From: a virus
Length of the DNA: 40,337 nucleotides
Virus record (IMG/VR): IMGVR_UViG_3300047472_000061
Span: 1-40,337 of that record
Direction: 5' to 3' (one strand)
The notes beneath the pieces were generated by a model. The model was not told the DNA's origin and did no database searches. It saw only the letters and a list, made by a program, of their open reading frames with translations. The number at the start of each line of letters is the position of its first letter. Position 1 is the stretch's first letter. Below are positions 17,459 through 31,428 of this stretch, piece by piece. Both the position numbers and the translations under genes were made by a program.

Positions 17459-17488
17459 ATCCCAAATTCTAACATTGGGGTGCGGATT

Positions 17489-18082
17489 ATGAAAAAGTTT
17501 GGAACGCTTATCGTCGGCATTATTATAGGTGTCGGCTTGACGCTTTCGCCACAAATATATGGTGCTTCAGTTAAACTGTTGGGAAAGGATGTGGACAACC
17601 AATTGGAGGTTAAACTGAATGACAAGGTAATTGGACAGGCCGCAGTTATTGAAGGGACATCTTACATTCCTGTTCGAGCTTTTGCAAATGAGTACCAATT
17701 GGATGTTGCAGTAGACTCGAAAACGATAACCCTAACGTCACCTTCTTCTGAAGAAAATGCCAAACTAGCACAGGAACAGGAAGACGCAGCGAATCTACCT
17801 ATAAAAATAGAAAACTTAAAAAACCAAATCACATTTTCAAAAGAAAAAATAGCATCCTTGGAATCTGGTATTGCAGATGCAGAATTGGAAGTTAAAAAAT
17901 TTAAGGAACAACTTGATACAGCAAACTCCAACGCTGCTCTTGGACAGGTATATAAGGATCGGGCAAAGAACAACTATGATGCAGCTGTACAAGGTTTGGA
18001 ATCTGGTAAATCAGAACTCGCTAAAGAACAGACCAACCTCGCGGATCTCGAAGCCCAACTCGCCGCATTGCAACAAAAATAG
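17489..18082 (+). CDS. Exported stalk-domain coiled-coil protein
   Basis: The ATG at 17489 (GGGGTG upstream) gives 197 aa. MKKFGTLIVGIIIGVGLTLSPQIYGA is a signal peptide or membrane anchor. Residues about 27-82 (VKLNDKVIGQAAVIEGTSYIPVRAFANEYQLDVAVDSKTITL) are a copper-amine-oxidase-N/stalk domain with the YIPVRAFAN core, typical of Paenibacillus surface proteins. Residues 90-197 form a long coiled coil. An exported protein amid virion genes is unusual: it may be a lysogeny-expressed surface protein, a superinfection-exclusion factor, or a virion part that binds the wall. A terminator and possible promoters flank it, as for a moron. Confidence 0.75.
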   Translation: MKKFGTLIVGIIIGVGLTLSPQIYGASVKLLGKDVDNQLEVKLNDKVIGQAAVIEGTSYIPVRAFANEYQLDVAVDSKTITLTSPSSEENAKLAQEQEDAANLPIKIENLKNQITFSKEKIASLESGIADAELEVKKFKEQLDTANSNAALGQVYKDRAKNNYDAAVQGLESGKSELAKEQTNLADLEAQLAALQQK

Positions 18083-18180: not shown

Positions 18181-19605
18181 ATGGCGACCACGTTAGGAAA
18201 CGGCGTAGTGGACTACAATACAGCCACAGCAGACGCCAAGAAGAAACTGGTGCAGAATCAGCTGAAGATCAACAACGATCCCGGGTATGTAGCCAGTGAG
18301 CAGCAGCGCGCCTTACAGGTCATTGCACAGCGGCAAGCGCAGGGGCTGGACACAAGCGGACAGCAGAAGTATTTAACGCAGCAGTTGGGATACAAAGCTC
18401 CAGCGGCAAATACAGCGGCCACAACTGCTGCACCCGCCACGTCAGCAACGGCAGCGACGAAGACGAACGCACAGCAGGGATCGGATTATATGTCTCAGAT
18501 GGCGGCTATAGCTCAGCGGCAAGCCACTCCATTCTCTTATGACCCAAACAGTGATCCGGCGTATCAAGCCGCGCTAACCCGGGCTAAGGCCAATATTGCA
18601 GATGGTACAGCTCAGACAGAGGCTGAAATGAATCGGCGTGGGCTGCTGAACAGCACGATCACGTCTGACCGATCCGCAGAGATTGGCGCACAGGAAATGG
18701 GCAACGTTGAAACAACCGTCCTGCCACAATTGATGCAGCAAGCTTACCAGAAGTATGCAGACCAATTGGCACAGGAGCAACAGCAATTCAACAACCTCGG
18801 GACGGTGGCTAATTCTTATCTCAGTGAGGATCAACGTGGCATCGACAACACCAACACCCGAGCTAATATGACTGGATACCTTCCAGGCGGAGAAGAAGCA
18901 CAGCAGCTTTACTCTCAACTCATGGGCCTGAAGCAACAGGCAGAGGCTAAAGGCATCACCGCAGCAGACCGCAGCAAGCTAAGCAATCAAGCAGACGGAA
19001 TCCGCGCCATGCTCTCCACAATGGGCGTAGATATTAGCAAGCTCGGAGCGAACACAAACTACAACACGGCAAGCCAGATCACGCCAACCATTCGCACGCT
19101 GGCAGGTCAGAACCAGGACTTGGCTGCACAGAATCAGGACTTCAACCAATCCACGCAGACCCGCCAACTGGATACGGCCGATAAGCAGTATGCCGAGAAT
19201 ATGCAATATCAAAAGGCGCGTGACGCTATCTCAGATAAGCAATGGCAGTCCACTTTCGATGAAAACGTTAAGCAGAATGGCCTTGATTATGCGCTTCGAA
19301 AGCTTGCTCAAGATGATTCCACTGCCTATCAACAAGCACAAGTTGCGCTGTCGCAGGATGATAATGATAGAGCATGGGCATCTTTAGAGAATAAAGATAC
19401 TGCGGAAGCGACAAAGACATATGAGGATTACCAGTCGGCAATCGGTAAGATCGTACAAAGAGATTCCAAGACGAAGGCTATCACCAATCCTGAACAAGTG
19501 GAAGATTATATCTTGAACTCTGACCTGTCGGAGTATGAAATGTACCGAGCATATGGTGCGTACGGATTGAAATGGGGAGGTGCAGTACCAACAAAGGGGG
19601 AGTGA
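18181..19605 (+). CDS. Internal virion/ejection protein, short form (474 aa)
   Basis: AAAAGGAGGCCCAAC precedes the ATG. The protein is Gln/Ala/Asn-rich and almost entirely helical. Residues about 70-100 are an Ala/Thr-rich linker. Residues about 118-165 (PFSYDPNSDPAYQAALTRAKANIADGTAQTEAEMNRRGLLNSTITSDR) match a segment I know from podovirus and tail-tip internal proteins ('..DP.Y.A....A......Q......NRRG...S'). Such proteins are packed in the head and injected with the DNA. At its 3' end is a -1 frameshift signal, so a fraction of ribosomes should make a 580-aa form with a peptidase domain. Confidence 0.7.
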   Translation: MATTLGNGVVDYNTATADAKKKLVQNQLKINNDPGYVASEQQRALQVIAQRQAQGLDTSGQQKYLTQQLGYKAPAANTAATTAAPATSATAATKTNAQQGSDYMSQMAAIAQRQATPFSYDPNSDPAYQAALTRAKANIADGTAQTEAEMNRRGLLNSTITSDRSAEIGAQEMGNVETTVLPQLMQQAYQKYADQLAQEQQQFNNLGTVANSYLSEDQRGIDNTNTRANMTGYLPGGEEAQQLYSQLMGLKQQAEAKGITAADRSKLSNQADGIRAMLSTMGVDISKLGANTNYNTASQITPTIRTLAGQNQDLAAQNQDFNQSTQTRQLDTADKQYAENMQYQKARDAISDKQWQSTFDENVKQNGLDYALRKLAQDDSTAYQQAQVALSQDDNDRAWASLENKDTAEATKTYEDYQSAIGKIVQRDSKTKAITNPEQVEDYILNSDLSEYEMYRAYGAYGLKWGGAVPTKGE

Positions 19606-19625
19606 GTAGCCCAGCGGCTGGGGCT
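19593..19625 (+). promoter_or_regulatory. Programmed -1 ribosomal frameshift signal
   Basis: The slippery heptamer A-AAG-GGG (19593-19599) is in the correct phase of the 18181 frame. It is followed by an 8-nt spacer and a strong stem AGCCCAG / CTGGGGCT with loop CGG (19608-19625, one bulged G). The zero frame stops at 19603-19605, just after the heptamer. The -1 frame continues for 107 codons into a peptidase domain that has no ribosome-binding site of its own. All three canonical parts (heptamer, spacing, structure) are present. Confidence 0.8.
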
Positions 19626-19922
19626 GTCAAGACGAGCAAGGGGTACAATTCAGCCGCAGAAGATAGTGCAAAAACTTATGGGTTAACCAAAACTTCGGGT
19701 TATCGTTCGGAAGCAGACAATAAACGCGTCGGTGGAAGCAAGACCAGCGATCACTTGACTGGTAACGCATCCGACTTCGCAGGAAGTGCAAAACAGATGG
19801 AAGCATACGCACAGTGGGCTGCAAAGAGCGGCCTATTTACAAAAGTCATATATGGCGGTAGGGACTTGATCAGCGGAAGAAAAGATAGTGAGCATGATGA
19901 CCACGTTCACGTTAGCTGGTAG
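19599..19922 (+). CDS. M15 (DD-carboxypeptidase-like) peptidase domain, frameshift extension
   Basis: These are the 107 codons read after the -1 shift. The sequence contains TSGYRSEADNKRVGGSKTSDHLTGNASDFAG and ends HDDHVHVSW: the conserved Arg of the SGYRS motif, zinc ligands His and Asp in S-x-H-(6)-D, and the final HVH. This is the Hedgehog/DD-peptidase fold (peptidase M15, VanY/L5-like), which cuts peptide cross-links in peptidoglycan. An ATG at 19572 exists in this frame but lacks a ribosome-binding site and lies inside the upstream gene, so synthesis as a fusion to the ejection protein is more likely. It would open the cell wall during DNA entry. Confidence 0.8.
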   Translation, partial: GVSSPAAGAVKTSKGYNSAAEDSAKTYGLTKTSGYRSEADNKRVGGSKTSDHLTGNASDFAGSAKQMEAYAQWAAKSGLFTKVIYGGRDLISGRKDSEHDDHVHVSW

Positions 19923-19936
19923 GAGGGAGGTCAATA

Positions 19937-22900
19937 ATGGCAGAATCTTTTGTTGAGAAGCGAAAAAGGGAACTGCGCGAGAAAAATGGGGGAGGCACAA
20001 TAAGTGCCTCCTCTTTTGTTGAACGAAGAAGAAAACAACTGCGCGGTGAAGTCGAAACCCAAGAATCTCAAATACCTAAGCTGGCTTTAAAAGAGAAGTC
20101 CCTTGAACCAATAATCTCAGAAAAAGCTCCATACGCAGTTGACTTCAAAGCAGAACAAGCCAAACCACAGCAACAGTCTGTATTTCAGGATAAGGTACCG
20201 GCAGCGAATCTAATTCAGACAGGCCAAGGCATACAATCTACGCTGCAAAATAAGGTCCCAGCAGCCAACCTTGTACAGCAGACAGGGCGGGGACCAGCAA
20301 ATGCTTCACAGATCCCGGGAATATCTGAATACGGAATACGCAAAAAGGCGATTGATGAAACGAACATACCAGAAATCGCCAAGTTACCTTCTCGGGCCAT
20401 AAACTATGCTGCATACGGTAATCCATTGGGTATTGCAGCATCCCGTTCGTTTGCCGGGAACTCTGGCGCATCTCGAAGAGATTCAACAGACTTTCCATTA
20501 CTAGACAAGGCGACAGATGCAATAAACAATCTTGTCACTCCTTTCCTTACACCGACAGGTCAAGCATCTGGTCAAGGCATCATCGGTAGCACATATGATG
20601 CAGCGGGAAAACTTCAATATTTGAAGCCGGTAATGAAATATGCTGACTACTTGGGTGACTCATTAATCAAGAGTGGACTGATACCTAAGGCAAGCAAAGC
20701 AACTGCCGACAGAGTAGCAAAAACTATAATCACAGAAACCGTTGCCGGTGCGCCACAAGGTGCTGCGTTTGGTGTGATGCAAGGTCAGGACAGCGCTGAA
20801 GAGATTATTAACAACGCAAAATTGGGCGCTGCTGGCGGCGGATTGCTTGCTGGCGGCGGATCGATTTTGTCTGAAGCAGGTTCTAATCTATTCAAGCGAC
20901 TGTTTGGCAGTGCTGCTACAGTTGCTGAAGAGGCAACACCGAATGCTCCAATGTTGGCATTACCTGAAGGGAGAGGCACAGTTAGGCAATCGCAAGCAGC
21001 GGGTCGTTCTAATCTGTCTTCTAACACTGATCCTATTATCAATGATACTGGATGGACACCTGAACCTTTGGGGCTTCCAGAAGCTAATATAGGAGCACCT
21101 ACAACGGCACGACGTACAACTAAGCCTGGACTGAACAGCGTGCTTGAGCAGATGAAACCGATTGTAGATGAGCGAACGATCCCGCCTATGGATCATATGA
21201 ATGATCTGGCCAAATGGATTCATACACGTATCAAAGATAACTTTGGGCAGGATATCTCCCTAAATGAGATCAGGGTACTACCGTACGATGACATGAAGAC
21301 AGTAGCCAATGAAATCCGCAGTAGGATCAGCGTAGAAGATACTGCCCGACAAGTGGCCCGGGAACTCGGATATGACTATGACAAGCTATTGAGCACCCGA
21401 TCTGTAGATAAATCTCTCGTATCCAAAGCAAAGCAGACTCAGAATATGCGTGCTGCTGCTGGGGTAGATAACTTGGTGAAATCATCAAGCGATCGGTACC
21501 AAACAATCATTGGTAGGGCATCAGATCCAGAAACTGTGATAGCGAAACCAGGTATTAGCGATATTAGAGCTAGCCAAAGAAATAATAAAATTCCAACACT
21601 GACGAGAGAACCACTCAACGCAGAAAACGTAAAACGGCCATTGGCAGAAGGTAAAGTTGGTGGTTCATTGGCACCTATGAAAAATCTATCCAGCGAAGTG
21701 AAGAAACAATCAAATCTGTCTACAACGGTGAAAAAGAAATCAACACCAGGAGAACGCGGTTTCGCTCAAACGTTGAAACAGTCCGAAAAAACGCCTGAAG
21801 GATTTACATCCAAACTCGATACTAAGTATGAGCAGACTACCAATCGCGGAGACTTGGATAAGGCGGAGGAACGTATTAAAGACCGCGCGGGGGCTACAAG
21901 ATTCATACTTGAAGAATCTAAAGGCGGCATGACCTCTGAACAGTCCATTACAGCTCAGCGATTGATTGACACACACCTTAAGGAAGGTAATACCAAAGCA
22001 GCGGAAGAAGTGGCTGACGCTATCCTGAGAGAATCCACCCGCAGTGCTCAGTTCTTACAATCTCTCTCCACATACAACAAGCTTTCCCCGGAAGGCGTGT
22101 ATATGGTAGCCAAGCGAATGGCTAACAAAGTGAACCAAACATCTTCTAAACTTGTGAGAAAAGCAGAAGTCACTCCGCAAATGGCTGATGATATTGTCAA
22201 CCTAGCAACCGTAAATCAGAAAATGACCGGAGTGCAGGACTTATCAAACGATGCTGTCGATATTCTCAAGCGCGCAAAGGCTGGTGAAAAACTAACAGAT
22301 GCCGAAACGTCTGTTATTCAGAAGTTTGTGGACGAGTCACAACAGTTCATTAAAGAAACATCAAAGAAGCCAGTTGTCAAAGAGCCTAAGCTACCAAAGG
22401 ACAAACGTGTCAGAGATAACGTGTCCAGTTTTCTTGACGCTCAAGAGGCAGCTGCTAAAGCTCGTCTGAGAGCGAAAGGGCATCGGATCAGTTCTACGCC
22501 ACTTGACATATGGGCAGATTATGCAGTTATTGGCGCTGCTAAGATGGGTCGTAATATTATTAAATTTTCAGAGTGGTCAGAACAGATGATTAAGGACATC
22601 GGAGAAAATATTCGTCCGCATCTTGAGTCACTGTACGAACGTTCAAGAGAGGTATTTGACCTCTCAAGTAAGAAAGTAACCTCCAAGACAGTGAGTGCCG
22701 CTGAAAGATTGACGCAAAAGGTGATTAAGACGAAAGAATTGTCACCAGAAGAAGCAGATTCCCTATTGCAATTAGTGTCACAGGTGGATAATTTGTCTGG
22801 TGAAGCCAAACGCACCGCATCCCAAGACTTACAGGTAATTCTCCAAAGCTTGGATAAACCGTCTATTGGTCGTAAGATCAGCAGTCTTCAGACCCAAGCA

Positions 22901-24625
22901 CAACTATTAAATCCTAAAACGATAGTAAGAAACGTTGTCGGTAATGAGTTGTTCTATCGTCTGGAACGTATCAACAAATACGTTTCAACTCCCATCGACA
23001 TTGCACGTTCTAAATTGACAGGTACGGACCGCACTGTTACCTTTCGAACGCACAATCAGGGAAAGTACTGGGAGAATTTCATCAACGGAGGCCGTGCAGG
23101 ATGGAAGGGCGTGAACATCAACGGAATAGAGACACAATACGACCTTGCAAGCCCTGCGTTCACCGGGAAGTACAATCCACTTAAGTACACTGAGAAAGCC
23201 CTTGGTGCGGCCCTCAGAAGCTTTGATAACGCTGCATACAGCAGAGCGATGAACAAATCATTGGGTGAACTCGGAACGCTGGATGCAATCAACAGCGGGG
23301 TTAAACCTACAAAGGAATATGTGCAGGAGTTCATTCGTAATGCTGATGAAAATGTGAACAAAATATCTCAAAACTATGGTAAATATGTTACATTTCAAGA
23401 TAACAACTTGATTTCCCAAGGTTTCACAAAGTTCAAGCGCGGACTTAATCTAGGCAAAGACTTTGGAGCAGGCGACTTAGTTATAAAGTACCCTAAAACT
23501 CCCGGCGCTTTGCTCATGAGGGCAATTGAATATAGTCCTGCCGGGTTTCTCCGTAGCGCGAAGATTGCCGCTGGGCCTTTACTGCGTAACGGAGTAGAGA
23601 AAAACACGGCAGAGACGGTGCAAGCCTTGTCCAGAGCAATTATCGGCACGGGTGGTCTTAGTATGTTTGGGTACTATCTGATGGACAAGGACATTTTGAC
23701 AGGAGCAGCAAGCACGGATAGAGACATTCGTTCTCTTCAAACAAAAATTGGTCAAGGAGCATATCAAGTAAATCTGTCAGCACTGTACCGATTTGTGAAG
23801 TCTGGTTTTGATGATGACGAAGCAACTATCAAAGAAGGAGATCAACTGTATAACTACGATTGGTTACAACCCGTATCCGTGGCAATTTCTCTCGGCGCTA
23901 ATGTACGGAAGAACCAAGGTGCTGACAGCAGCAAGATAGCATCAGGAATCGCAGGCACAGCGTACAACAGCGTTTCTGGTGCACTAAACACTTTGACAGA
24001 GCAGTCATTGTTAAAGGGCGTGGAGCAAGCTCTGTCAGGTTACACAGGAGAGACATCCACCGATAAGGTTGTAAGCATCATTGCGGATATGCCGGCCTCA
24101 TTCGTTGCAACGTTTTCCAACCAGATCAAGCAGACAGGAGACAACACGAAGCGTGAAACATATGCTCCTAATGTCATTGATCAATCTATCAACAAAGTTA
24201 AAGCGAAGATACCGCGACTCGCAGAAACATTGCCGAAGAAATATGACACTTTGGGCGGTGAACAAACTCATTATCAAGACGGAAATGCCTTCAACATCTT
24301 TGCTAATCCTGGATTCCCATCCAAGTACAAACTTTCTCCAGAAGCAAAAACTATTGTGGACTTGATTAAAGCAACTGGTGATGAATCATTAGCACCGCGA
24401 GTTCCTGACAAAAAATTGGACGGAATCAAGCTAACCGGAGAAGAATATTCCAGACTATCACAACTTCAGGGAGAAGAAACAAAAAAACTGATTTCAGAGC
24501 TTGATACCACCATGAGTGTTGAAGATCAAGCAAAAGAGGTAACTAAAATCCTTACAGAAGCAGGTAAAACAGCCAAGGAAAGATTGCGTGAAGAATTTCC
24601 AAGGCTGGTGAAGGAAGATGATTGA
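19937..24625 (+). CDS. Giant internal virion (ejection) protein, 1562 aa
   Basis: AGGAGGGAGG lies 7-9 nt before the ATG. The protein begins with a duplicated helix (SFVEKRKREL and SFVERRRKQL, residues about 4-36) and a duplicated KVPAANL(I/V)Q segment (about 83-113). A Gly/Ala-rich hydrophobic stretch is near 297-315; long helical and coiled segments run to about 980, and a conserved-looking block LNPKTIVRNVVGNELFYRLERINK is near 992-1015. A second hydrophobic segment (AIIGTGGLSMFGYYLMD) is near 1233-1250. Giant proteins last in the structural block of short-tailed phages are injected to form a DNA conduit (T7 gp16-like) or act as polyvalent proteins. No polymerase or transglycosylase motif is visible. 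Confidence 0.65.
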   Translation: MAESFVEKRKRELREKNGGGTISASSFVERRRKQLRGEVETQESQIPKLALKEKSLEPIISEKAPYAVDFKAEQAKPQQQSVFQDKVPAANLIQTGQGIQSTLQNKVPAANLVQQTGRGPANASQIPGISEYGIRKKAIDETNIPEIAKLPSRAINYAAYGNPLGIAASRSFAGNSGASRRDSTDFPLLDKATDAINNLVTPFLTPTGQASGQGIIGSTYDAAGKLQYLKPVMKYADYLGDSLIKSGLIPKASKATADRVAKTIITETVAGAPQGAAFGVMQGQDSAEEIINNAKLGAAGGGLLAGGGSILSEAGSNLFKRLFGSAATVAEEATPNAPMLALPEGRGTVRQSQAAGRSNLSSNTDPIINDTGWTPEPLGLPEANIGAPTTARRTTKPGLNSVLEQMKPIVDERTIPPMDHMNDLAKWIHTRIKDNFGQDISLNEIRVLPYDDMKTVANEIRSRISVEDTARQVARELGYDYDKLLSTRSVDKSLVSKAKQTQNMRAAAGVDNLVKSSSDRYQTIIGRASDPETVIAKPGISDIRASQRNNKIPTLTREPLNAENVKRPLAEGKVGGSLAPMKNLSSEVKKQSNLSTTVKKKSTPGERGFAQTLKQSEKTPEGFTSKLDTKYEQTTNRGDLDKAEERIKDRAGATRFILEESKGGMTSEQSITAQRLIDTHLKEGNTKAAEEVADAILRESTRSAQFLQSLSTYNKLSPEGVYMVAKRMANKVNQTSSKLVRKAEVTPQMADDIVNLATVNQKMTGVQDLSNDAVDILKRAKAGEKLTDAETSVIQKFVDESQQFIKETSKKPVVKEPKLPKDKRVRDNVSSFLDAQEAAAKARLRAKGHRISSTPLDIWADYAVIGAAKMGRNIIKFSEWSEQMIKDIGENIRPHLESLYERSREVFDLSSKKVTSKTVSAAERLTQKVIKTKELSPEEADSLLQLVSQVDNLSGEAKRTASQDLQVILQSLDKPSIGRKISSLQTQAQLLNPKTIVRNVVGNELFYRLERINKYVSTPIDIARSKLTGTDRTVTFRTHNQGKYWENFINGGRAGWKGVNINGIETQYDLASPAFTGKYNPLKYTEKALGAALRSFDNAAYSRAMNKSLGELGTLDAINSGVKPTKEYVQEFIRNADENVNKISQNYGKYVTFQDNNLISQGFTKFKRGLNLGKDFGAGDLVIKYPKTPGALLMRAIEYSPAGFLRSAKIAAGPLLRNGVEKNTAETVQALSRAIIGTGGLSMFGYYLMDKDILTGAASTDRDIRSLQTKIGQGAYQVNLSALYRFVKSGFDDDEATIKEGDQLYNYDWLQPVSVAISLGANVRKNQGADSSKIASGIAGTAYNSVSGALNTLTEQSLLKGVEQALSGYTGETSTDKVVSIIADMPASFVATFSNQIKQTGDNTKRETYAPNVIDQSINKVKAKIPRLAETLPKKYDTLGGEQTHYQDGNAFNIFANPGFPSKYKLSPEAKTIVDLIKATGDESLAPRVPDKKLDGIKLTGEEYSRLSQLQGEETKKLISELDTTMSVEDQAKEVTKILTEAGKTAKERLREEFPRLVKEDD
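19991..20017 (+). other. Terminator-like hairpin inside the 1562-aa gene
   Basis: GGAGGCAC-AATAA-GTGCCTCC is a perfect 8-bp stem followed by TCTTTT, 54 nt after the ATG. It encodes the linker between the two SFVE(K/R)(K/R)R helices and could attenuate transcription of this very long gene. Confidence 0.6.
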
Positions 24626-24791
24626 GTATGACGAAACCGAATTCCAAGACGGCCTAAACTTCTGGGCGCTGGACTGGATCACGCACCTGTACGGTGCTGA
24701 AATGGCGGAGTTACTTGACCCGGAGGTGGTGCCGATAGATGTGGGGAGCAGCGGACACAATCTACGATCTGATTTACTTCGTACTTCGTAA
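24618..24791 (+). CDS. Hypothetical acidic protein, 57 aa
   Basis: The ATG overlaps the previous stop region (ATGATTGA). The product MIEYDETEFQDGLNFWALDW continues with a plausible helix HLYGAEMAELLDPEVVPI. It overlaps the next start at 24739 by 53 bases. It is coding-like, has no recognised family, and may be a minor virion or assembly protein. Confidence 0.5.
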   Translation: MIEYDETEFQDGLNFWALDWITHLYGAEMAELLDPEVVPIDVGSSGHNLRSDLLRTS

Positions 24792-25086
24792 CTTAAAAGA
24801 TTTCCGATGGGAGGCCCTAATAGGGTACTCCCTTTATTTATTCGGCAAGCGTTCTGGCATGAAAATGTTCCGCAAGTTCATGACCGGACACTTCCCCTAC
24901 CTTGCCGATGAAAACGATGACTGGCGCAGATGGGCGACGAACCAAATCCAATTATTAGGTGGGCGAAAATGGCAGCCGACGAAGCAGTATGGGCGTATGA
25001 AACGATCCGCGAGAGTGGGTCAGAGGAACTTAACTACATCATCGACCTCGTTACCGGAGGTCACAAACCAGGAAGGAGTGTTACCG
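24739..25086 (+). CDS. ORF read in frame into the endolysin (116 codons)
   Basis: ATG 24739 has GGAGGTGG upstream and starts MWGAADTIYDLIYFVLRNLKDFRWEALIGYSLYLFGKR, with a possible amphipathic membrane-associated segment. No stop occurs before the amidase ATG at 25087, so the formal ORF is 407 codons. The last 40 codons before 25087 are rich in Arg, Ser and Thr and look out of frame, while a 45-codon ORF in another frame looks better there. This may be a separate gene whose stop was lost, or an N-terminal extension giving a longer lysin. A terminator-like hairpin (24809-24839) lies inside it. Confidence 0.45.
24809..24839 (+). terminator. Terminator-like hairpin
   Basis: GGGAG-g-CCCT-AAT-AGGG-TA-CTCCC is followed by TTTATTT. 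It lies within the 24739 ORF and might reduce read-through into the lysis genes. Confidence 0.5.
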
Positions 25087-25106
25087 ATGAAGACAGAGAT
25101 ACTTGA
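24969..25106 (+). CDS. Small acidic protein, 45 aa
   Basis: The ATG follows AGGTGGGCGAAA. The product MAADEAVWAYETIRESGSEE continues LNYIIDLVTGGHKPGRSV and looks like a folded helical peptide. It overlaps the amidase start by 20 bases. It is out of frame with the 24739 ORF, and its composition is more protein-like than that frame here. Such small proteins often sit between structural and lysis genes (XkdX-like position); no family is assigned. Confidence 0.5.
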   Translation: MAADEAVWAYETIRESGSEELNYIIDLVTGGHKPGRSVTDEDRDT

Positions 25107-25962
25107 GAAGATAGTCGTGCTTGACTTCGGACATGGTAAAAAGGATTCTGGCGGGGTGGGCGCAACCAAGAAGCTTGAGAAGGACTTTAACCTATCTGTG
25201 GGACTGAAGATCAATGGTCTGCTGAAAAAGAACCCGGAGATTAACGTAATCCTCACTCGTTCAACGGACGTGTTCGTGGAGCTTGTAGACCGCGCCAAGA
25301 TCGCCAATAAAGCGAAGGCAGACGTATTCCTATCTATCCATGCCAATGCCGGGGAACCATCTGCCAAAGGCTCTGAGACGCTGTATACGAAGGAAATGGA
25401 TAAACCTTTCGCAACGATCATCCACAAATACCTGATGGCGACAACTGGACTGGTAGACCGCAAATGCCGGTATCAGAACCTATCCGTTTGCCGGAACACA
25501 ACGATGCCGGCATGCTTAATTGAACCGGGATTCCTGACGAATCCAGCAGAAGAGGAATTACTCTTTAATGAAGAGTTCCAGAATCGTCTTGCCGTGGCCA
25601 TGGCACAAGGCATCTGCGAGTACCTGGGTGTGAAGTACGGAGTGAGATCCACTCCGGCCGGTACGTATCCGGTAGACGTGCTGCTGAACGATGTGCCGTA
25701 TGATGGGCTGCTGATCGAAGGTAAGAGCTGGGTACCGGCCAAGCTTATCCTGAACGCCCTAGGCGCACGCTGGTCCTACGCGCTGCGGAGTATCTATGTC
25801 GGTGACACGAAGGTTGATACGAAAAATTACGACGGCACTAGTTATATCAAAGGAACGGACCTGCGTGACCTCGGCGTGGTACGCAGCGTGTTTCTGGACC
25901 CGGATGCGATCAACACCAAGCGCGTCTTAATCTATCCAAAGGAGAGTGTGACAAATGAATGA
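25087..25962 (+). CDS. Endolysin: N-acetylmuramoyl-L-alanine amidase with stalk domain
   Basis: The 291-aa lysin cuts the bond between muramic acid and the peptide stem at the end of infection. It is Amidase_3: VVLDFGHGKKDSGG (His16), Glu31, FLSIHANAG (His85) and the catalytic CLIEPGFLTNPAEE (Glu146). The C-terminal 100 residues (PVDVLLNDVPYDGLLIEGKSWVPAKLILNALGARWSYALRSIYVGD) form a copper-amine-oxidase-N/stalk-like domain, probably for wall binding. The start is chosen for AAGGAG eight bases upstream. There is no signal peptide, so export depends on the holin encoded next. Confidence 0.92.
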   Translation: MKTEILEKIVVLDFGHGKKDSGGVGATKKLEKDFNLSVGLKINGLLKKNPEINVILTRSTDVFVELVDRAKIANKAKADVFLSIHANAGEPSAKGSETLYTKEMDKPFATIIHKYLMATTGLVDRKCRYQNLSVCRNTTMPACLIEPGFLTNPAEEELLFNEEFQNRLAVAMAQGICEYLGVKYGVRSTPAGTYPVDVLLNDVPYDGLLIEGKSWVPAKLILNALGARWSYALRSIYVGDTKVDTKNYDGTSYIKGTDLRDLGVVRSVFLDPDAINTKRVLIYPKESVTNE

Positions 25963-26224
25963 TCTATTATTGCAAGTCATGGCCTTTGCATCTGCACTGT
26001 CTGTGATTGTCGTAGCGCTGCTTAATCTGGTCAAGGTTACGGTTACTCTGCCGAAGAATCTTATTCCTATCATTGGTCTTGTGATTGGTTTAGTCGCTGG
26101 AGCTGCGGCGGACATCTTTACGGACCTCGATTTAGTCCCAAGATTGTGGGCTGGAGCATTTGCAGGGCTATCGGCAACCGGTCTGTTCGAGCTGATCAAA
26201 AATAATCCTGGTACGACGAAATGA
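25955..26224 (+). CDS. Holin
   Basis: The 89-aa membrane protein overlaps the amidase stop by eight bases and has AAAGGAGAG upstream. Three hydrophobic segments are visible: about 5-26 (LLQVMAFASALSVIVVALLNLV), 33-53 (PKNLIPIIGLVIGLVAGAAAD) and 60-80 (LVPRLWAGAFAGLSATGLFEL), followed by a short polar tail. Its size, topology and position after the endolysin fit a holin that permeabilises the membrane at lysis time. The exact family is not certain. Confidence 0.8.
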   Translation: MNDLLLQVMAFASALSVIVVALLNLVKVTVTLPKNLIPIIGLVIGLVAGAAADIFTDLDLVPRLWAGAFAGLSATGLFELIKNNPGTTK

Positions 26225-26294: not shown

Positions 26295-26540
26295 TCGGGT
26301 AACATTTTGGGTAACAAAATGAACTGGTATGCCATGATATAAACATAAAGATGTTACAAATCTTTTCGATACTGATTCCTTGGAAAAGCCGAAATAGTGG
26401 CTATTTACTGGGATGCCGTTGTGCGGTTGTGAAGATGTTACAAATCTTGTGCGATACCAAAACCATATCGTTAAGTGTTGATTTACCGGGCTTTAATTAG
26501 GTTATTATGGTGTCGGGTAACATTTGGGTAACATTTTGGT
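26295..26540. other. attP: Putative phage attachment region (attP)
   Basis: A symmetric array lies beside the integrase gene. Two copies of AAGATGTTACAAATCTT (26348-26364 and 26432-26448) continue with a shared CGATAC; each has perfect AAGAT/ATCTT arms around a 7-bp centre. Exactly midway is the palindrome AAATAG-TGG-CTATTT (26392-26406). Outside lie paired GGGTAAC repeats at 26297/26309 and 26515/26526, the right pair being within the last codons of the integrase. Paired arm sites around a palindromic core are the build of a tyrosine-recombinase attP. The actual crossover bases cannot be fixed without the host attB. Confidence 0.6.
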
Positions 26541-27849
26541 CTCTGATGATCGGATTTTTAAGCAAATTGCTGTATTTTTCGACCGCATCACGCTTCTTGG
26601 GTTTAGTGGTATGCAAGTAGACACGAGTGGTCATTTTGTCATTGGCATGTCCTAACATTTCCATTACCTGTTCCAAGCTAACTCCAGCCTCAGCCATCAG
26701 TGACGTGAACGTGTGACGCATGGAATGGGGTGATAGATCTTTATCCAAACCAGAAATGCGTATTATCCTCTTCATCCTTTTATTGATTACAGCTTCCGGG
26801 ATAGGGTATCCGAGATACCTACCTTTTTGCTGCCCGAATATAAAACCTTGATCATAGTGTGTTGGATTGTTATGTTTGATCATTTTACTTTTTTCGATTA
26901 AACCCAACATCATAGTTGTGATCTCAGGGTCTATCTCCAACTCACGAATAGAGGATGTTGTCTTAGGTGGACCCAATTCAAATTTTTTATAATTATTGGT
27001 CTCGTTAGTATAGTTCTTAATGATTTTAATTTTATTTATTGATGGTTTAAATGCTTGCTCCTGTAATCCTTCTAGTTCCCCAATCCGTATCCCCGTATAA
27101 GCCAACATCGTGAATATTTCATAATCTAAGGGTACTCCAAATTTGTATGCCGTATCAAGAAATATTAGCAGCTCATCACGTTCTAAGAAATCAGGGATGT
27201 CTTCCCATTGTTCAATTTCTTCAACGGTTTGGTAATCTTGGGGGACGTGAGCATCTTTAGCCGGGTTATCTTCTAAAAATTTATGTTTTATTCCAAATTG
27301 GAAAATCATCTTTGCAGTTGTATGTGTGCTGTTTATGGTATTGGTTGTCAATTTACTTTTAAACTGTTCATGAGTACCTTCTTTTAACTGTATCAGAGTA
27401 GTTTGGTAATCCTCATGAGTGATTTCTCGGACTGGTTTATTAAAGCATCGACTGAGTCTATTTATGTCGTTGTTGCGAATTCTAAGGGTATTCATTCGTT
27501 TCCGTTTTCCTGTGACCTTATACGATTCTAACCATTGTTCGGCTAATTCCTCCAAACTAATATTAATCCGTTCCTCTTCCTTTTTCGCCTCTTCAAGTCT
27601 AAGCCGTTCCTCGGCTGCTCTACGGGCCACGTCTTCCGGAAGGGTGTTTGTCTTGTACTGTTCCATCATGATGGCTGCTGCGGCCTCTGCGTCGTCCTTA
27701 GTATCAAATCCGCCTCGCTTCTTCTGATTACGGCTGCCGTCCGGCTTCTTCCCCAAATCAAGCATAAACGCCCACTTGGCGCCACACTTACACTTCTTTT
27801 TCTTCAGACCAGGGCATTCGCAATGAGGCTTATAGTAATGTCCTTTCAC
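26497..27849 (-). CDS. int: Site-specific tyrosine recombinase (integrase)
   Basis: The 450-aa protein inserts and excises the prophage. The start is GTG after GAGGAG. The N-terminus has a Cys cluster (CEC at 10-12, CKC at 20-22) and an arm-binding domain with KRGGFDTKDDAEAAAA; residues about 97-195 are the core-binding helical domain. Catalytic residues are Arg255 (YTGIRIGE), Lys about 296, His375 and Arg378 (HSMRHT), His401 (LGHAND) and Tyr411. All are present, so it should be active. It is slightly longer than the usual 370-400 aa owing to the charged helix at about 70-97. It lies convergent to the late operon, beside the probable attP. Confidence 0.95.
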   Translation of the reverse strand: MKGHYYKPHCECPGLKKKKCKCGAKWAFMLDLGKKPDGSRNQKKRGGFDTKDDAEAAAAIMMEQYKTNTLPEDVARRAAEERLRLEEAKKEEERINISLEELAEQWLESYKVTGKRKRMNTLRIRNNDINRLSRCFNKPVREITHEDYQTTLIQLKEGTHEQFKSKLTTNTINSTHTTAKMIFQFGIKHKFLEDNPAKDAHVPQDYQTVEEIEQWEDIPDFLERDELLIFLDTAYKFGVPLDYEIFTMLAYTGIRIGELEGLQEQAFKPSINKIKIIKNYTNETNNYKKFELGPPKTTSSIRELEIDPEITTMMLGLIEKSKMIKHNNPTHYDQGFIFGQQKGRYLGYPIPEAVINKRMKRIIRISGLDKDLSPHSMRHTFTSLMAEAGVSLEQVMEMLGHANDKMTTRVYLHTTKPKKRDAVEKYSNLLKNPIIRDQNVTQMLPDTIIT

Positions 27850-27947: not shown

Positions 27948-28490
27948 CTATAAATTTCTAAATTCTTCCCAAAAGCTATCTGAAGAAACTGCTCCCTCTT
28001 CTTGGTATGCAGTGTACTTGTCTATCCAGTATTTTTTTGTTGCTATATCACCTTCAAACCCGGGAATAGTAGAAATATATTCGAAAAACAACTCTAACGC
28101 TCTTTCCTCTTTTTGTTTTATGGAAACTAGCTCGTTTTTATATGAACGTAACAATTTCATGTTCAATTCAATTTGTTCACTGTTTTCTCTCATTAGGGAC
28201 TCGGTGTAGTCGACATCTTCTTCTTTTATTTCTCTCCCAGCTCGTGCTTCAGCATAAAAATAGTAAAGGTTTTTAGCTCTTTCGTCTTCAAAATAGAATC
28301 CAACTAGAAAGTCTAATGATTCCTTTGTCTCTACTCTGATTTTATATAGTGTTTCTAAGTTAGGCTGTCCAGTTCCCTTTTCAAATTTATTGTAATACTG
28401 CTGGGAAACCCCAATTCTTTCAGCCATCTCTTTTTGCGAAATGTTTAGTCTTTCACGTAACCATTTTAAACGCGCAGCAAATAAATTCAA
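27948..28490 (-). CDS. CI-like XRE repressor 1
   Basis: The 180-aa protein starts at TTG (AAGGGG upstream). Residues 5-60 are an HTH_3 DNA-binding domain (LKWLRERLNISQKEMAERIGVSQQYYNKFEKGTGQPNLETL); the remainder is a long acidic helical region (KNLYYFYAEARAGREIKEEDVDYTESLMRENSEQIELN), probably for oligomerisation. No LexA-type Ala-Gly cleavage site or S24 peptidase Ser-Lys dyad is visible, so it would not self-cleave on SOS; release by the antirepressor (28824) is more likely. It is divergent from a Cro-like gene, forming the first switch. Confidence 0.85.
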   Translation of the reverse strand: MNLFAARLKWLRERLNISQKEMAERIGVSQQYYNKFEKGTGQPNLETLYKIRVETKESLDFLVGFYFEDERAKNLYYFYAEARAGREIKEEDVDYTESLMRENSEQIELNMKLLRSYKNELVSIKQKEERALELFFEYISTIPGFEGDIATKKYWIDKYTAYQEEGAVSSDSFWEEFRNL

Positions 28491-28508
28491 AAAAACATCC
28501 CCTTGGTA

Positions 28509-28537
28509 TTGATATAATAAACAAATGGTTGTATTAT
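28509..28537 (+). promoter_or_regulatory. Early promoter of the first switch
   Basis: TTGATA (28509-28514), a 17-bp spacer and TATTAT (28532-28537). It lies in the 70-bp gap between the divergent repressor and Cro-like gene, where repressor operators are expected. Confidence 0.7.
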
Positions 28538-28560
28538 TTAATTATGGGAGGTGGAAAACA

Positions 28561-28767
28561 ATGGCACAGCCAAAAACAAGGGTAGAGTATCTGAGAAAAA
28601 TCAACTTTTTATCTCAAAAGGAAGTGGCTGAAAAGTTAGGAGTTTCGCAACAGTTCTATCACAAAATCGAGAAAGGTACTTCAAAAATCAACCTGGATAT
28701 GGCGGATTCTCTCAAGGTAATATTTAACCTGACATGCATTGAAGAACTGCTCAGAGATGTATCCTAA
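28561..28767 (+). CDS. Cro-like XRE regulator 1
   Basis: The 68-aa protein starts at ATG 28561 after GGGAGGTGG; an upstream in-frame ATG lies inside the promoter. Nearly all of it is an HTH_3 domain (RVEYLRKINFLSQKEVAEKLGVSQQFYHKIEKGTSKINLDMADSL). Its recognition-helix region (SQQFYHKIEKGT) resembles that of repressor 1 (SQQYYNKFEKGT), so both probably bind the same operators. Confidence 0.85.
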   Translation: MAQPKTRVEYLRKINFLSQKEVAEKLGVSQQFYHKIEKGTSKINLDMADSLKVIFNLTCIEELLRDVS

Positions 28768-28790
28768 CAACTCCGTGTTTATTGTATCAT

Positions 28791-28816
28791 TTGTAAATTA
28801 TATTTTACAAGGGAGG
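28791..28816 (+). promoter_or_regulatory. Hairpin abutting the antirepressor ribosome-binding site
   Basis: TTGTAAA-TTATAT-TTTACAA is a perfect 7-bp inverted repeat whose last base is directly followed by the Shine-Dalgarno GGGAGG of the antirepressor gene. It could be an operator, or an RNA stem affecting ribosome access. Confidence 0.5.
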
Positions 28817-28823
28817 ATTATTA

Positions 28824-29597
28824 ATGAATCAGTTAATTACGATTAATGGAGTTCGAGGTTTTATTGATAATGACGGCACAGCTCAGTTGAATTTGGATGA
28901 TATTTCACGTGGGCTTGGATTTACTCAACGAAAGGGTAAAGTGGAATACATCAGATGGGAGAGAGTAAATAGTTATTTGATTGATATGGGTTTTCCCCAG
29001 CTGGTGGGGAAAGAATTTATACCTGAAAATGTATTTTATCGACTTTCTATGAAAGGTGAGACTGATAATGCAGTTTCATTTCAGATTAAAGTTGCAGATG
29101 AAATACTGCCTTCGATAAGAAAACACGGTACGTATATGACTACTGATTTCATTGAAAAATCCCTTAGTGATCCAGAAACATATATTAAGTTTTTGACAAT
29201 GTATAAGGAAGAAAAGGAACAACGTTTGCTTGTTGAGATGAAACTTAAAGAAGTAGCTCCGAAAGCAGCATACTATGATACTATTCTTAAATCAAAAGGA
29301 ACTGTAACTAGTTCTCAGATAGCAAAAGACTACGGTTTGAGTGCCCAGGATCTAAACAAAATCCTACATGAATCCAAAATACAGTATAAGCAAAATGATC
29401 AATGGCTATTGTACAGTAAACACGCCGATAAAGGATATACTCAGTCACATGCATTTGATTTTAATCACAAAGATGGTACTCCAGATGTGAAAATGACTAC
29501 CAGATGGACACAACGAGGAAGGATCATGATACACGAACTATTGGTTTCAATGGGAATTAAGCCTAATATTGAAAAAGACTACGATGATGCAAAATGA
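28824..29597 (+). CDS. ant: Phage antirepressor (KilA-C/ANT)
   Basis: The 257-aa protein starts after GGGAGGATTATTA. Residues 1-110 resemble the Bro-N/ORF6N-like domain of antirepressors (INGVRGFIDNDGTAQLNLDDISRGLGFTQRKGKVEYIRW; SFQIKVADEILPSIRKHGTYM). Residues about 140-250 are the KilA-C/ANT domain (APKAAYYDTILKSKGTVTSSQIAKDYGLSAQDLNKILHESKIQYKQNDQWLLY and MTTRWTQRGRIMIHELL). Such proteins bind phage repressors and trigger induction. It lies directly after Cro-like 1, so it likely acts on repressor 1. Confidence 0.9.
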   Translation: MNQLITINGVRGFIDNDGTAQLNLDDISRGLGFTQRKGKVEYIRWERVNSYLIDMGFPQLVGKEFIPENVFYRLSMKGETDNAVSFQIKVADEILPSIRKHGTYMTTDFIEKSLSDPETYIKFLTMYKEEKEQRLLVEMKLKEVAPKAAYYDTILKSKGTVTSSQIAKDYGLSAQDLNKILHESKIQYKQNDQWLLYSKHADKGYTQSHAFDFNHKDGTPDVKMTTRWTQRGRIMIHELLVSMGIKPNIEKDYDDAK

Positions 29598-29637
29598 GTC
29601 ATGGTTAATACAAAATAATGATTAATCGGAGGAATAA

Positions 29638-29934
29638 ATGGGTGATGTAATGAGTTTTAGAGATGCGCTACTTCAAGGTTATATCGAATATTCAGATGAA
29701 AGTTGTGTAAAAATCGTTGATAAAGCATTAAAAGGACAGTTGTCTGAACTTGATTTTGAAGAGGAAGGTAGTGTTGTTTTCGGGTATATCATAAGCGCAT
29801 TATATACGTTTGACAGAGACAAATTTTACTCGCTTATTCAACCCATTGTTGACGATTATAAAGAAAGAATGGTTAAAGAAGAAATGGATGGATATCACGC
29901 AGTAATGAGAGAGAGTATACATGTGGTCAAATAA
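29638..29934 (+). CDS. Hypothetical protein, 98 aa
   Basis: GGAGGAATAA precedes ATG 29638; a second in-frame ATG is at 29650. The product is helical and acidic (FRDALLQGYIEYSDESCVKIVDKALKGQLSELDFEE) with a Tyr/Phe-rich centre. It follows the antirepressor on the same strand and may be a regulator partner; no family is recognised. Confidence 0.65.
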   Translation: MGDVMSFRDALLQGYIEYSDESCVKIVDKALKGQLSELDFEEEGSVVFGYIISALYTFDRDKFYSLIQPIVDDYKERMVKEEMDGYHAVMRESIHVVK

Positions 29935-29955
29935 AAAAAGCCGCTATGCAGCGAC
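29933..29955 (-). terminator. Minus-strand terminator
   Basis: On the minus strand GTCGCT-GCAT-AGCGGC is followed by TTTTTTT. It would end the transcript of the XRE gene at 30260-30484, leaving a 3' untranslated region of about 300 nt. Confidence 0.7.
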
Positions 29956-30259
29956 TAATCCGTTCACCTTTCTCCCACCAAGAAGTTAAGGTGACAACCA
30001 TTTTGGGCATAACCCATACAGCCACATTATATCCACAAACCCCATGACTGTAAAGGTTATGCCCTCTTTTTACCACTAAAATACCTGGATGTAAAAGATT
30101 ATGTATGTTCAATACTTAACGCCATAAATTGTAATACTTTACCGCTATTAATTACCAATATATCCATGGTAAATTATTCTTGTGCAGATGGTAGCGCTAC
30201 CATATAAGATAGAAGTTGTGAGATATGACAACTTTTACACCGAGCCGAGAGTAGAAATT
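29956..30259. other. About 300 bp without a clear gene; palindromes
   Basis: No convincing coding frame is seen. A minus-strand ORF (30112-29927) lacks a ribosome-binding site. The region holds a perfect 16-bp palindrome ATGGTAGCGCTACCAT (30188-30203) and an inverted repeat AAGTTGT-N8-ACAACTT followed by TTT (30213-30236). The latter could be a weak + strand terminator for the antirepressor operon; the former looks like an operator for a dimeric regulator. It is also the 3' UTR of the minus-strand XRE transcript. Confidence 0.5.
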
Positions 30260-30484
30260 CTACTCATGGCCTCCGCCTTGAATCCATTCGTACAGATCGT
30301 CAATATGACATCCTAGAGCATTAGCAATGGTTTTTGCTGTGGAAATATGCATTAAACCGCGGTCATTGGCGTAATAAGAAATTCTGTACTTATCTATACC
30401 AGTTTTTTCGGACAACCATTTCTGAGACTTACGTCTCTCTCTAAGCAACAGGCGGAGGCGGCATCGACCCGGTATATAGGTCAT
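30260..30484 (-). CDS. Small XRE-family regulator
   Basis: The 74-aa protein has GAGGAG before the ATG. It is a compact HTH_3/HTH_26 domain: RLRLLLRERRKSQKWLSEKTGIDKYRISYYANDRGLMHISTAKTIANALGCHIDDLYEW. The ending 'IDDLYEW' is typical of small XRE regulators. It is divergent from the 38-aa ORF at 30573, with a LexA-type box between, so it may belong to an SOS-responsive module. Confidence 0.8.
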   Translation of the reverse strand: MTYIPGRCRLRLLLRERRKSQKWLSEKTGIDKYRISYYANDRGLMHISTAKTIANALGCHIDDLYEWIQGGGHE

Positions 30485-30508
30485 GCACGTACTCCTCTTA
30501 TTTTAACG

Positions 30509-30537
30509 TTGTGTAAGAACTTATGTTCGTATATTAT
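30509..30537 (+). promoter_or_regulatory. SOS-type promoter with LexA/DinR box
   Basis: TTGTGT (30509-30514), a 17-bp spacer and TATTAT (30532-30537) form a promoter. Inside it is AGAACTTATGTTCG (30516-30529), which matches the Bacillus LexA (DinR) consensus CGAAC-N4-GTTCG at all but the outermost base. LexA bound there would block the promoter of the 38-aa gene at 30573 and possibly that of the divergent XRE gene. Confidence 0.7.
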
Positions 30538-30572
30538 TGTATTAACATTTCGATTTGACAGGAGAGGCTTAC

Positions 30573-30689
30573 ATGAAACAAACAAAGAAAGAAGTTATCG
30601 ACTGGTATGAAGTGTTCGTTAAACTGGGATTAGATAAAACGATCCTAGATTTTAAGAATCCTTCAGAACAAATCGAACATAAGAAATGA
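30573..30689 (+). CDS. 38-aa protein under a LexA-type box
   Basis: ATG 30573 follows GGAGAGG at good spacing. The product is MKQTKKEVIDWYEVFVKLGL followed by a charged helix DKTILDFKNPSEQIEHKK. Its 3' end overlaps the antisense end of repressor 2 by 38 bases. Small SOS-controlled phage proteins are known as antirepressors in other phages (for example Tum-like); that role here is inference from the promoter and position. Confidence 0.55.
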   Translation: MKQTKKEVIDWYEVFVKLGLDKTILDFKNPSEQIEHKK

Positions 30690-31077
30690 TTTTCTTGACA
30701 TCTTCTTCTTTTATTTCTTCTCCGTTTGATGTGTGATGGTACATATCAATGATTTGCTCATCGTCATATCTCAAAATAAGATCTTTAAGATCGCTTATAG
30801 CATTTATTGATTTTGTAACGCTTTCTATTTCCTGTTGGTGTTGCTCTTCAAGTTCTGAGTATCCGGCAGTAAGCATTAAGTCCTTATACGGGTAATTATA
30901 GGCGCGCGATAAGCTTCTCAAAGTATCAGGAGAAGGTTTTACAGGCGCGCCTGTTCTTGGATCTACCCCCTTTTCTACGATACTTAAATAGTTGTGACTA
31001 ATCCCTGCTCGTTTTGACACACTCCGCAAAGATTCCTTTCCTCTTAATTGTCTTAATAAATCACCTAAATTAACCAC
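30652..31077 (-). CDS. CI-like XRE repressor 2
   Basis: The 141-aa protein starts at GTG after GGAGGTGCAAT. Residues 3-70 are HTH_3 (LGDLLRQLRGKESLRSVSKRAGISHNYLSIVEKGVDPRTGAPVKPSPDTLRSLSRAYNYPYKDLMLTAGY), with an unusual insertion (DPRTGAPVKPS) after the recognition helix as in SinR/Rgg-like phage repressors. The rest is an acidic helical dimerisation region. No peptidase motif is present. It is divergent from the Cro-like gene at 31201, forming a second switch. Confidence 0.85.
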   Translation of the reverse strand: MVNLGDLLRQLRGKESLRSVSKRAGISHNYLSIVEKGVDPRTGAPVKPSPDTLRSLSRAYNYPYKDLMLTAGYSELEEQHQQEIESVTKSINAISDLKDLILRYDDEQIIDMYHHTSNGEEIKEEDVKKIISYVRFVLKDS

Positions 31078-31090
31078 ATTGCACCTCCGT

Positions 31091-31179
31091 GTAATTCTTA
31101 GATTACATTATGTAATACAAAAATAAAAATCTAATATTGTAATTCATACTTGACACTTAAGTAATCCACGTGATACATT
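31091..31179. promoter_or_regulatory. Operator cluster and promoter of the second switch
   Basis: GTAAT half-sites occur at 31091, 31112, 31139 and 31161, with the inverted ATTAC at 31102. GTAAT-N6-ATTAC (31091-31106) is a perfect inverted repeat and ATTAC-N5-GTAAT follows. TTGACA (31150-31155), an 18-bp spacer and TACATT (31174-31179) form the rightward promoter. This arrangement fits shared operators between a repressor and a Cro-like gene. Confidence 0.65.
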
Positions 31180-31200
31180 TATATCAAGGAGGTGTAACAC

Positions 31201-31428
31201 ATGAAGAACAAAGTGAAAGAGTATAGAACTGAAACTGGAATGAGTGTTGCTGAACTAGCAAGACGTGCAAAAACAAGCAGACAGACGATTCACGCAATCG
31301 AAAAAGGAGATAGAAAAAATATCTCTGGATCACTAATGTTTTCAATTGCCGATGCACTGAAAAGAGACGAAAGAGATATTTTTTTTGTTGATAATGTATT
31401 ACAAGAATTACATGACTGGACGGCTTGA
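31201..31428 (+). CDS. Cro-like XRE regulator 2
   Basis: AAGGAGGTG lies upstream. The 75-aa product is a full HTH_3 domain (VKEYRTETGMSVAELARRAKTSRQTIHAIEKGDRKNISGSLMFSIADALKRDERDIFFVDNV), like small Cro/YgzD-type regulators. Its partner is repressor 2. It heads the early rightward operon. Confidence 0.85.
   Translation: MKNKVKEYRTETGMSVAELARRAKTSRQTIHAIEKGDRKNISGSLMFSIADALKRDERDIFFVDNVLQELHDWTA

Follow-up and report, generated by a model that had tools for sequence, protein, structure and literature searches.

The tail assembly chaperones that long-tailed phages make by ribosomal frameshifting are not enzymes, and their genes lie between those for the tail tube and the tape measure protein. 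Podoviruses carry virion-associated peptidoglycan hydrolases, of which the SLT domain of T7 gp16 and phi29 gp13 are examples. Passages of the recoding review PMC5009743 describe Ig-like and other C-terminal domains that are added by frameshifting to phage capsid and tail proteins, including gene 10A/10B of T3/T7, Lactobacillus phage A2 and Listeria phages, and give G_GGA_AAC and G_GGA_AAG as chaperone slip sites in haloarchaeal viruses; lysozyme, peptidoglycan and hydrolase are not mentioned in the passages of that review drawn on here. Measured in E. coli, A_AA.G_GG.G is among the most efficient motifs, and G_GG.A_AA.C has a low efficiency, yet is used by IS elements (PMC4066793).

Here we describe a virus locus where a candidate -1 slip site lies at the end of a putative ejection protein gene (ORF A) and leads into a peptidoglycan hydrolase frame (ORF B). 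The locus lies in the IMG/VR virus record IMGVR_UViG_3300047472_000061, whose whole stretch of 40,337 bases was analysed and is called the window below.

Slip site, signals and enzyme in the window

The features of the locus are as follows:

18181-19605 (+): ORF A, 474 aa, 51.7 kDa, the 0-frame product, an all-helical putative ejection or internal virion protein
19576-19582 (+): GGAGGTG, a Shine-Dalgarno (SD)-like element within ORF A, a putative 5' stimulator 10 nt before the heptamer
19593-19599 (+): slippery heptamer A_AAG_GGG, in phase with ORF A
19603-19605 (+): 0-frame stop TGA, 3 nt past the heptamer
19606-19627 (+): 3' hairpin GUAGCCC / GGGCUGU with a loop of 8, its 5' arm 6 nt after the heptamer
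19599-19922 (+): ORF B, read in -1 past the slip, 107 aa and a stop, comprising a linker and an M15_3 peptidase
19937-24625 (+): 1562-aa protein, a putative large ejection protein directly downstream, a conserved neighbour of the A/B pair
24739-25962: amidase, separate from ORF B
25955-26224: predicted holin gene, adjoining the amidase

The 3' end of ORF A reads ACA AAG GGG GAG TGA in the 0 frame. The heptamer is of the X_XXY_YYZ type, and in this phase the tRNAs on AAG and GGG can shift back by one base and pair with AAA and GGG. The -1 frame stays open over 19539-19922, and a slip at the heptamer gives exactly 473 + 107 residues, a predicted fusion of 580 aa and 62.8 kDa. Its predicted tryptic junction peptide is GGVSSPAAGAVK, while the unshifted product ends in GE.

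ORF B matches the Pfam profile Peptidase_M15_3 (PF08291) with an E value of 8.5e-12 and 45.6 bits against a curated cut-off of 23.2. It also aligns with 1LBU, a zinc D-Ala-D-Ala carboxypeptidase (E 2.4e-4), where SDHLTGNASD and EHDDHVH of ORF B face SRHMYGHAAD and HNDHTH. The zinc ligands, His(x6)Asp and the His of the HxH motif, are all present. By profile and alignment ORF B is an M15 zinc peptidase, with predicted activity.

An earlier note on this DNA, made from the letters alone, had proposed a canonical heptamer in the right phase, a 580-aa fusion and an M15 domain with zinc ligands in the -1 frame, all of which are borne out above. Two of its claims stand in part. The stem that it called strong is, for the window alone, a hairpin of 6 bp and -9.1 kcal/mol with a z score of -0.89 against shuffles, which is not significant, and the claim is upheld only across the family. 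It had also denied the -1 frame a ribosome-binding site; two start codons exist there, ATG 19572 and GTG 19602 (overlapping the stop as GTGA), with weak SD pairing of -5.2 and -3.0 kcal/mol (-9 to -16 for the strong sites of this phage), and the majority of relatives lack a start. The note overlooked the upstream GGAGGTG, whose anti-SD duplex amounts to -14.4 kcal/mol. Because the hairpin is unremarkable and two poor start codons are present, the window by itself is suggestive only.

Junctions of ORF A in related phages

We searched IMG/VR, GTDB genomes and 400 host-family genomes using ORF A alone as query, so that the searches were blind to the downstream sequence. GTDB matches were found in Paenibacillus rhizophilus, P. 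maysiensis and Cohnella ginsengisoli, and 57 of the 400 host-family genomes had a match. These phages form a large, short-tailed group of Paenibacillus and related bacteria, in which the ribosome apparently slips one base back at the end of a virion gene.

The searches resulted in 85 distinct junctions. Relative to ORF A a peptidoglycan hydrolase is found in the -1 frame in 64 of these, in the same frame in 3 and in the +1 frame in none, and 17 have no hydrolase. At one further junction (L040) the -1 glucosaminidase frame is broken within B by an apparent single-base indel near a run of A, some 60-90 nt past the end of ORF A; either this copy is dead or the sequence is in error. The -1 arrangement greatly outnumbers in-frame fusion. 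Sequencing error as the source of the frame change was rejected, as independent records agree and only L040 looks like an indel, inside B. Extending the searches to the order and class added four -1 junctions with G_GGA_AAC or G_GGA_AAG (L140, L150, L157 and L158), one of which has an NlpC/P60 enzyme.

A canonical heptamer is located at most 3 nt from the stop in 53 of the 64 -1 junctions (directly at the stop in 47, 3 nt away in 6). The remaining 11 have a homopolymeric, shifty tetramer, G_GGG or U_UUU. For comparison, the 20 junctions that lack a -1 hydrolase (17 with no enzyme and 3 in frame, L040 set aside) are all devoid of a canonical heptamer before the stop (Fisher p 8e-12), and an in-phase canonical heptamer within 12 nt of the stop is present at 14 of 484 control ORF ends (2.9%). 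The p values given here are indicative only since the relatives share descent and the junctions are not independent. The control ORF ends and the homologues without hydrolase rule out a chance heptamer. Two junctions without canonical heptamer, L072 and L097, have GTT TTT CAG or TTT TTT CAG before the stop (U_UUU) together with a strong 13-bp hairpin.

The most frequent heptamer is G_GGA_AAC (31), followed by G_GGA_AAG (11), A_AAG_GGG (3: the window, L012 and L015), and A_AAA_AAC, G_GGA_AAA and C_CCA_AAC with 2 each, and U_UUA_AAG and U_UUG_GGG are found once each. The wobble base preceding GGA is a G at 42 out of 42 G_GGA sites at the stop, in eight different codons, while G makes up 27% of third positions in these genes. 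A hairpin lies 4-10 nt downstream at 86% of the sites compared to 6.8% of control positions (p 7e-36). The family hairpins are built from 44 different stem pairs and the mean folding z score at the family sites is -2.8 against windows of the same genes. Upstream SD-like pairing of -6 kcal/mol or better is found at 31% of family sites versus 9.5% of control positions, an SD stimulator thus being present in only part of the family. The commonest family site, G_GGA_AAC, is inefficient in E. coli, so slip rates could be low.

Mapping heptamer and stem across homologous phages was the check that the earlier note had named for itself, and the 53 canonical heptamers and the family hairpins are its outcome; relatives in which the enzyme has a conserved start of its own and no heptamer did not occur. 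The signal and its conservation are plain from the comparison of these junctions. Taken together, the sequences strongly support programmed -1 frameshifting from ORF A into the hydrolase, which we regard as close to certain, and we infer that the fusion is made, as a minority, at some rate.

The enzymes behind ORF A belong, according to Pfam, to the SLT transglycosylases, glucosaminidases, VgrG3-C/GH46-like enzymes and M15, to which the search of the order and class added NlpC/P60. M15 is unique to the window among the 64 -1 junctions, being one of several interchangeable enzymes. On an ORF A tree of 55 rows we count at least 27 changes of enzyme family against a mean of 29.9 with shuffled labels; the enzyme labels are hardly better clustered than shuffled ones, while frame and signal persist. 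Junctions L024 and L031, for example, are 86% identical up to the junction and have ATACTCGGGAAACTGACTAGCCCC in common, after which L024 has a glucosaminidase and L031 an SLT domain, 34% alike. Across the family the slip site apparently behaves as a socket that stays in place, with wall-cutting enzymes that differ in fold being swapped behind it.

In-frame fusions of ORF A and enzyme occur in three lineages, two of which contain a fossil heptamer: in L038 and L066 the stop has been lost and the enzyme is in frame, with GGGAAAC or GGGAAAG retained. These two indicate that the fusion itself works, at full stoichiometry in some lineages. Since three lineages have the enzyme in frame, it need not strictly be confined to a minority of copies.

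A search with the DNA pattern CGGGAAACTGANNAGCCCC brings up other short ORF pairs joined in -1 as well, of about 130-250 aa plus 76-105 aa, e.g. ...GSGN / GKLNSPNWLAVYAYR (members are L165, L166, L168, L174, L176, L179, L184, L186, L190 and L192). These short pairs resemble tail assembly chaperones; a comparison with PHROGs yielded no match that could be used.

Proposed role of the fusion and other explanations

We consider it highly probable that the locus is a frameshift site yielding a minority of fused lysin on a probable ejection protein. At the end of ORF A a slippery heptamer, the adjoining stop, a hairpin about 6 nt downstream and a dnaX-like internal SD 10 nt upstream would act together. 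Most ribosomes would terminate and produce the 474-aa protein, while a minority would slip one base back at AAG-GGG, resulting in the 580-aa form with the M15 zinc peptidase at its C-terminus. A few copies per particle would thereby carry a peptidoglycan hydrolase for local opening of the wall during DNA entry, and most copies of ORF A would stay enzyme-free.

ORF A is in a late-gene position of a podovirus-type genome and adjoins a very large late protein. Its neighbours in the window are a putative tail/connector protein and the 1562-aa protein, which has no family match and whose counterparts in relatives have 1190-1541 aa. Gene order is conserved in the relatives checked, with tail-type genes on one side of ORF A and a late protein of about 1,200-1,560 residues on the other. 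The AlphaFold model of ORF A is nearly all helix (pLDDT 75.5). A PDB sequence search with ORF A gave no match, and when the model was compared by Foldseek with viral and PDB structures the best E values were 0.025 and 2.7, respectively; in these searches neither sequence nor fold linked ORF A to a known ejection protein. The weak fold matches are only to uncharacterised phage proteins, several labelled Podoviridae, and the PHROG matched is of unknown function. Annotated phages searched with ORF A of the window and of two relatives gave no match, and the M15 part, used by itself to scan viral sequences, had a single weak match.

Gene order, the all-helical model and the podovirus-type gene set suggest that ORF A is most probably an ejection protein; that it is an internal virion protein of this kind and that the fused enzyme acts in entry is, taken as one claim, likely. 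The phage has a separate amidase and a predicted holin, and lysis therefore does not need the fused enzyme. From this and the gene order we infer that the M15-type enzyme is carried in the virion and works during entry. A reading in which the frameshift is real and the enzyme is used for lysis or to mature the virion, or in which ORF A is a different tail component, draws on ORF A being without a detectable homologue of known function. We find it unlikely given the amidase with its adjoining holin, the position of ORF A ahead of the large late protein and a capsid 72% identical to those of the Bacillus megaterium podophages Page, Pascal and others.

Upstream of ORF A, a 200-aa protein (17480-18082) has a weak, below-cut-off match (E 0.0028) of the copper amine oxidase N-terminal-like kind, along with weak matches to coiled-coil families. 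Further along, the window encodes an integrase-like protein (26497-27849, minus strand) and several helix-turn-helix-like repressors judged by eye (27948-31428), which suggests a temperate phage.

Another explanation treats ORF B as a gene of its own, whose translation starts by coupled re-initiation at GTGA (GTG 19602) or from ATG 19572. The window offers the GTG overlapping the stop, a purine-rich stretch ahead of it and the strong GGAGGTG 19 nt upstream, and an overlapping GTG is found in L014 and an overlapping ATG in L049 and L108. Against this, 44 of the 64 junctions contain no ATG, GTG or TTG between the opening of the -1 frame and a point 36 nt beyond the stop, many having GTA or CTG there, and SD spacing and pairing are poor for both starts in the window. 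Re-initiation would also leave the heptamers and the -1 frame bias unexplained, and we judge it very improbable. We hold it just as improbable that the frame break arose by chance as domains were shuffled, with selection tolerating out-of-frame enzymes. Passages of PMC5009743 suggest such shuffling for phage Ig-like domains, for which +1, -1 and in-frame versions coexist, and three in-frame fusions are present here; but the split of 64, 3 and 0 between the -1, in-frame and +1 arrangements is far from random and every new enzyme brings the same phase and its own hairpin. That RNA polymerase slippage on a homopolymer joins the frames is hardly credible. Five consecutive G occur in the window, and GGGGGAG or six A in some relatives, but the majority of sites read GGGAAAC or GGGAAAG, in which no run exceeds 3, and phase, wobble-base constraint and hairpin obey ribosomal rules.

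Cultured podophages and comparison with known systems

The arrangement in which a minority fusion would be made by frameshifting has a counterpart in cultured phages. In Bacillus phage Page (NC_022764) the gene at the corresponding position, Page_18, ends TCG GGT TTT CTG GGG TAG, which contains G_GGU_UUU. The -1 frame continues for about 300 more codons with NlpC/P60 and SLT domains, and the slip site of Pascal (NC_027372) is identical. Page_18/Page_19 and the window are alike in gene position, in having a heptamer before the stop and in a -1 hydrolase thereafter. They differ in that a comparison of Page_18 with ORF A detected no sequence homology, and a viral scan with Page_18 matched only Pagevirus-like records at 91-100% identity. 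At the late genes of the Paenibacillus larvae podophage API480, which has a related capsid, no such arrangement was found.

The annotated lysin start is an internal TTG in Page and a GTG in Pascal, with a three-base ribosome site. In Page it falls inside NlpC/P60 past the presumed catalytic Cys codon, and the gene model is for this reason probably wrong; the lysin of Page and Pascal has probably been misannotated as a separate gene. The stretches concerned, for which GenBank has a 'lytic tail fiber protein', are 18857-19780 of NC_022764 (L200) and 1871-2860 of NC_027372 (L202). According to the Page announcement, which mentions no frameshift, the phage has a lytic tail protein containing transglycosylase and peptidase domains (PMC3990757).

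We lean towards a general view of these loci as a frameshift socket in short-tailed Bacillota phages, in which a conserved -1 site and hairpin on a virion ejection protein would mount sub-stoichiometric, exchangeable entry lysins of at least five families (M15, SLT, glucosaminidase, VgrG3-C/GH46-like and NlpC/P60), and which would also be present in cultured Pagevirus on a protein without detectable relationship. Enzymes would join the short list of items that phages attach to virion proteins by frameshifting. A possible reason is that few wall-cutting copies per particle may suffice and that more could harm the producing cell or assembly. In this family a -1 site is replicated naturally dozens of times, with heptamer and hairpin varying and function kept, which is useful for learning frameshift rules in bacteria beyond E. 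coli. A fixed spot of lysin exchange in phage genomes also helps to find lysins missed or truncated by annotation, as in Page, where the annotated start removes the catalytic part of the NlpC/P60 domain.

Frameshift-added domains on virion proteins are known and are chiefly Ig-like; a wall hydrolase as the added domain was not found published, and the open-access papers searched (subscription papers being outside the search) contained no case of a frameshift-joined lysin. The tail assembly chaperones, such as lambda gpG/gpGT, share with ORF A/B a slippery heptamer near the stop. A chaperone was rejected as the identity of ORF A: it is long, its extension is an enzyme, and neither a major tail/tail tube nor a tape measure gene was recognised among the late proteins of the window that were scanned. 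E. coli dnaX resembles the window in having an internal SD about 10 nt upstream, a heptamer and a hairpin at similar spacing, but it uses another heptamer and its shifted product is shorter, while that of the window is longer. T7 gp16 and phi29 gp13 are like the fusion in placing a wall-cutting domain, thought to aid DNA entry, on an internal or tail protein; they carry the domain in every copy, whereas on ORF A it would be added by frameshifting to a fraction. The Ig-like and capsid systems are similar to ORF A/B in that a slip near the end of a virion gene yields a minority long form, with in-frame versions occurring too. ORF A/B differs from them in adding a peptidoglycan hydrolase, in doing so on a putative ejection protein, in using the -1 frame only and in the frequent exchange of the enzyme family behind a conserved signal.
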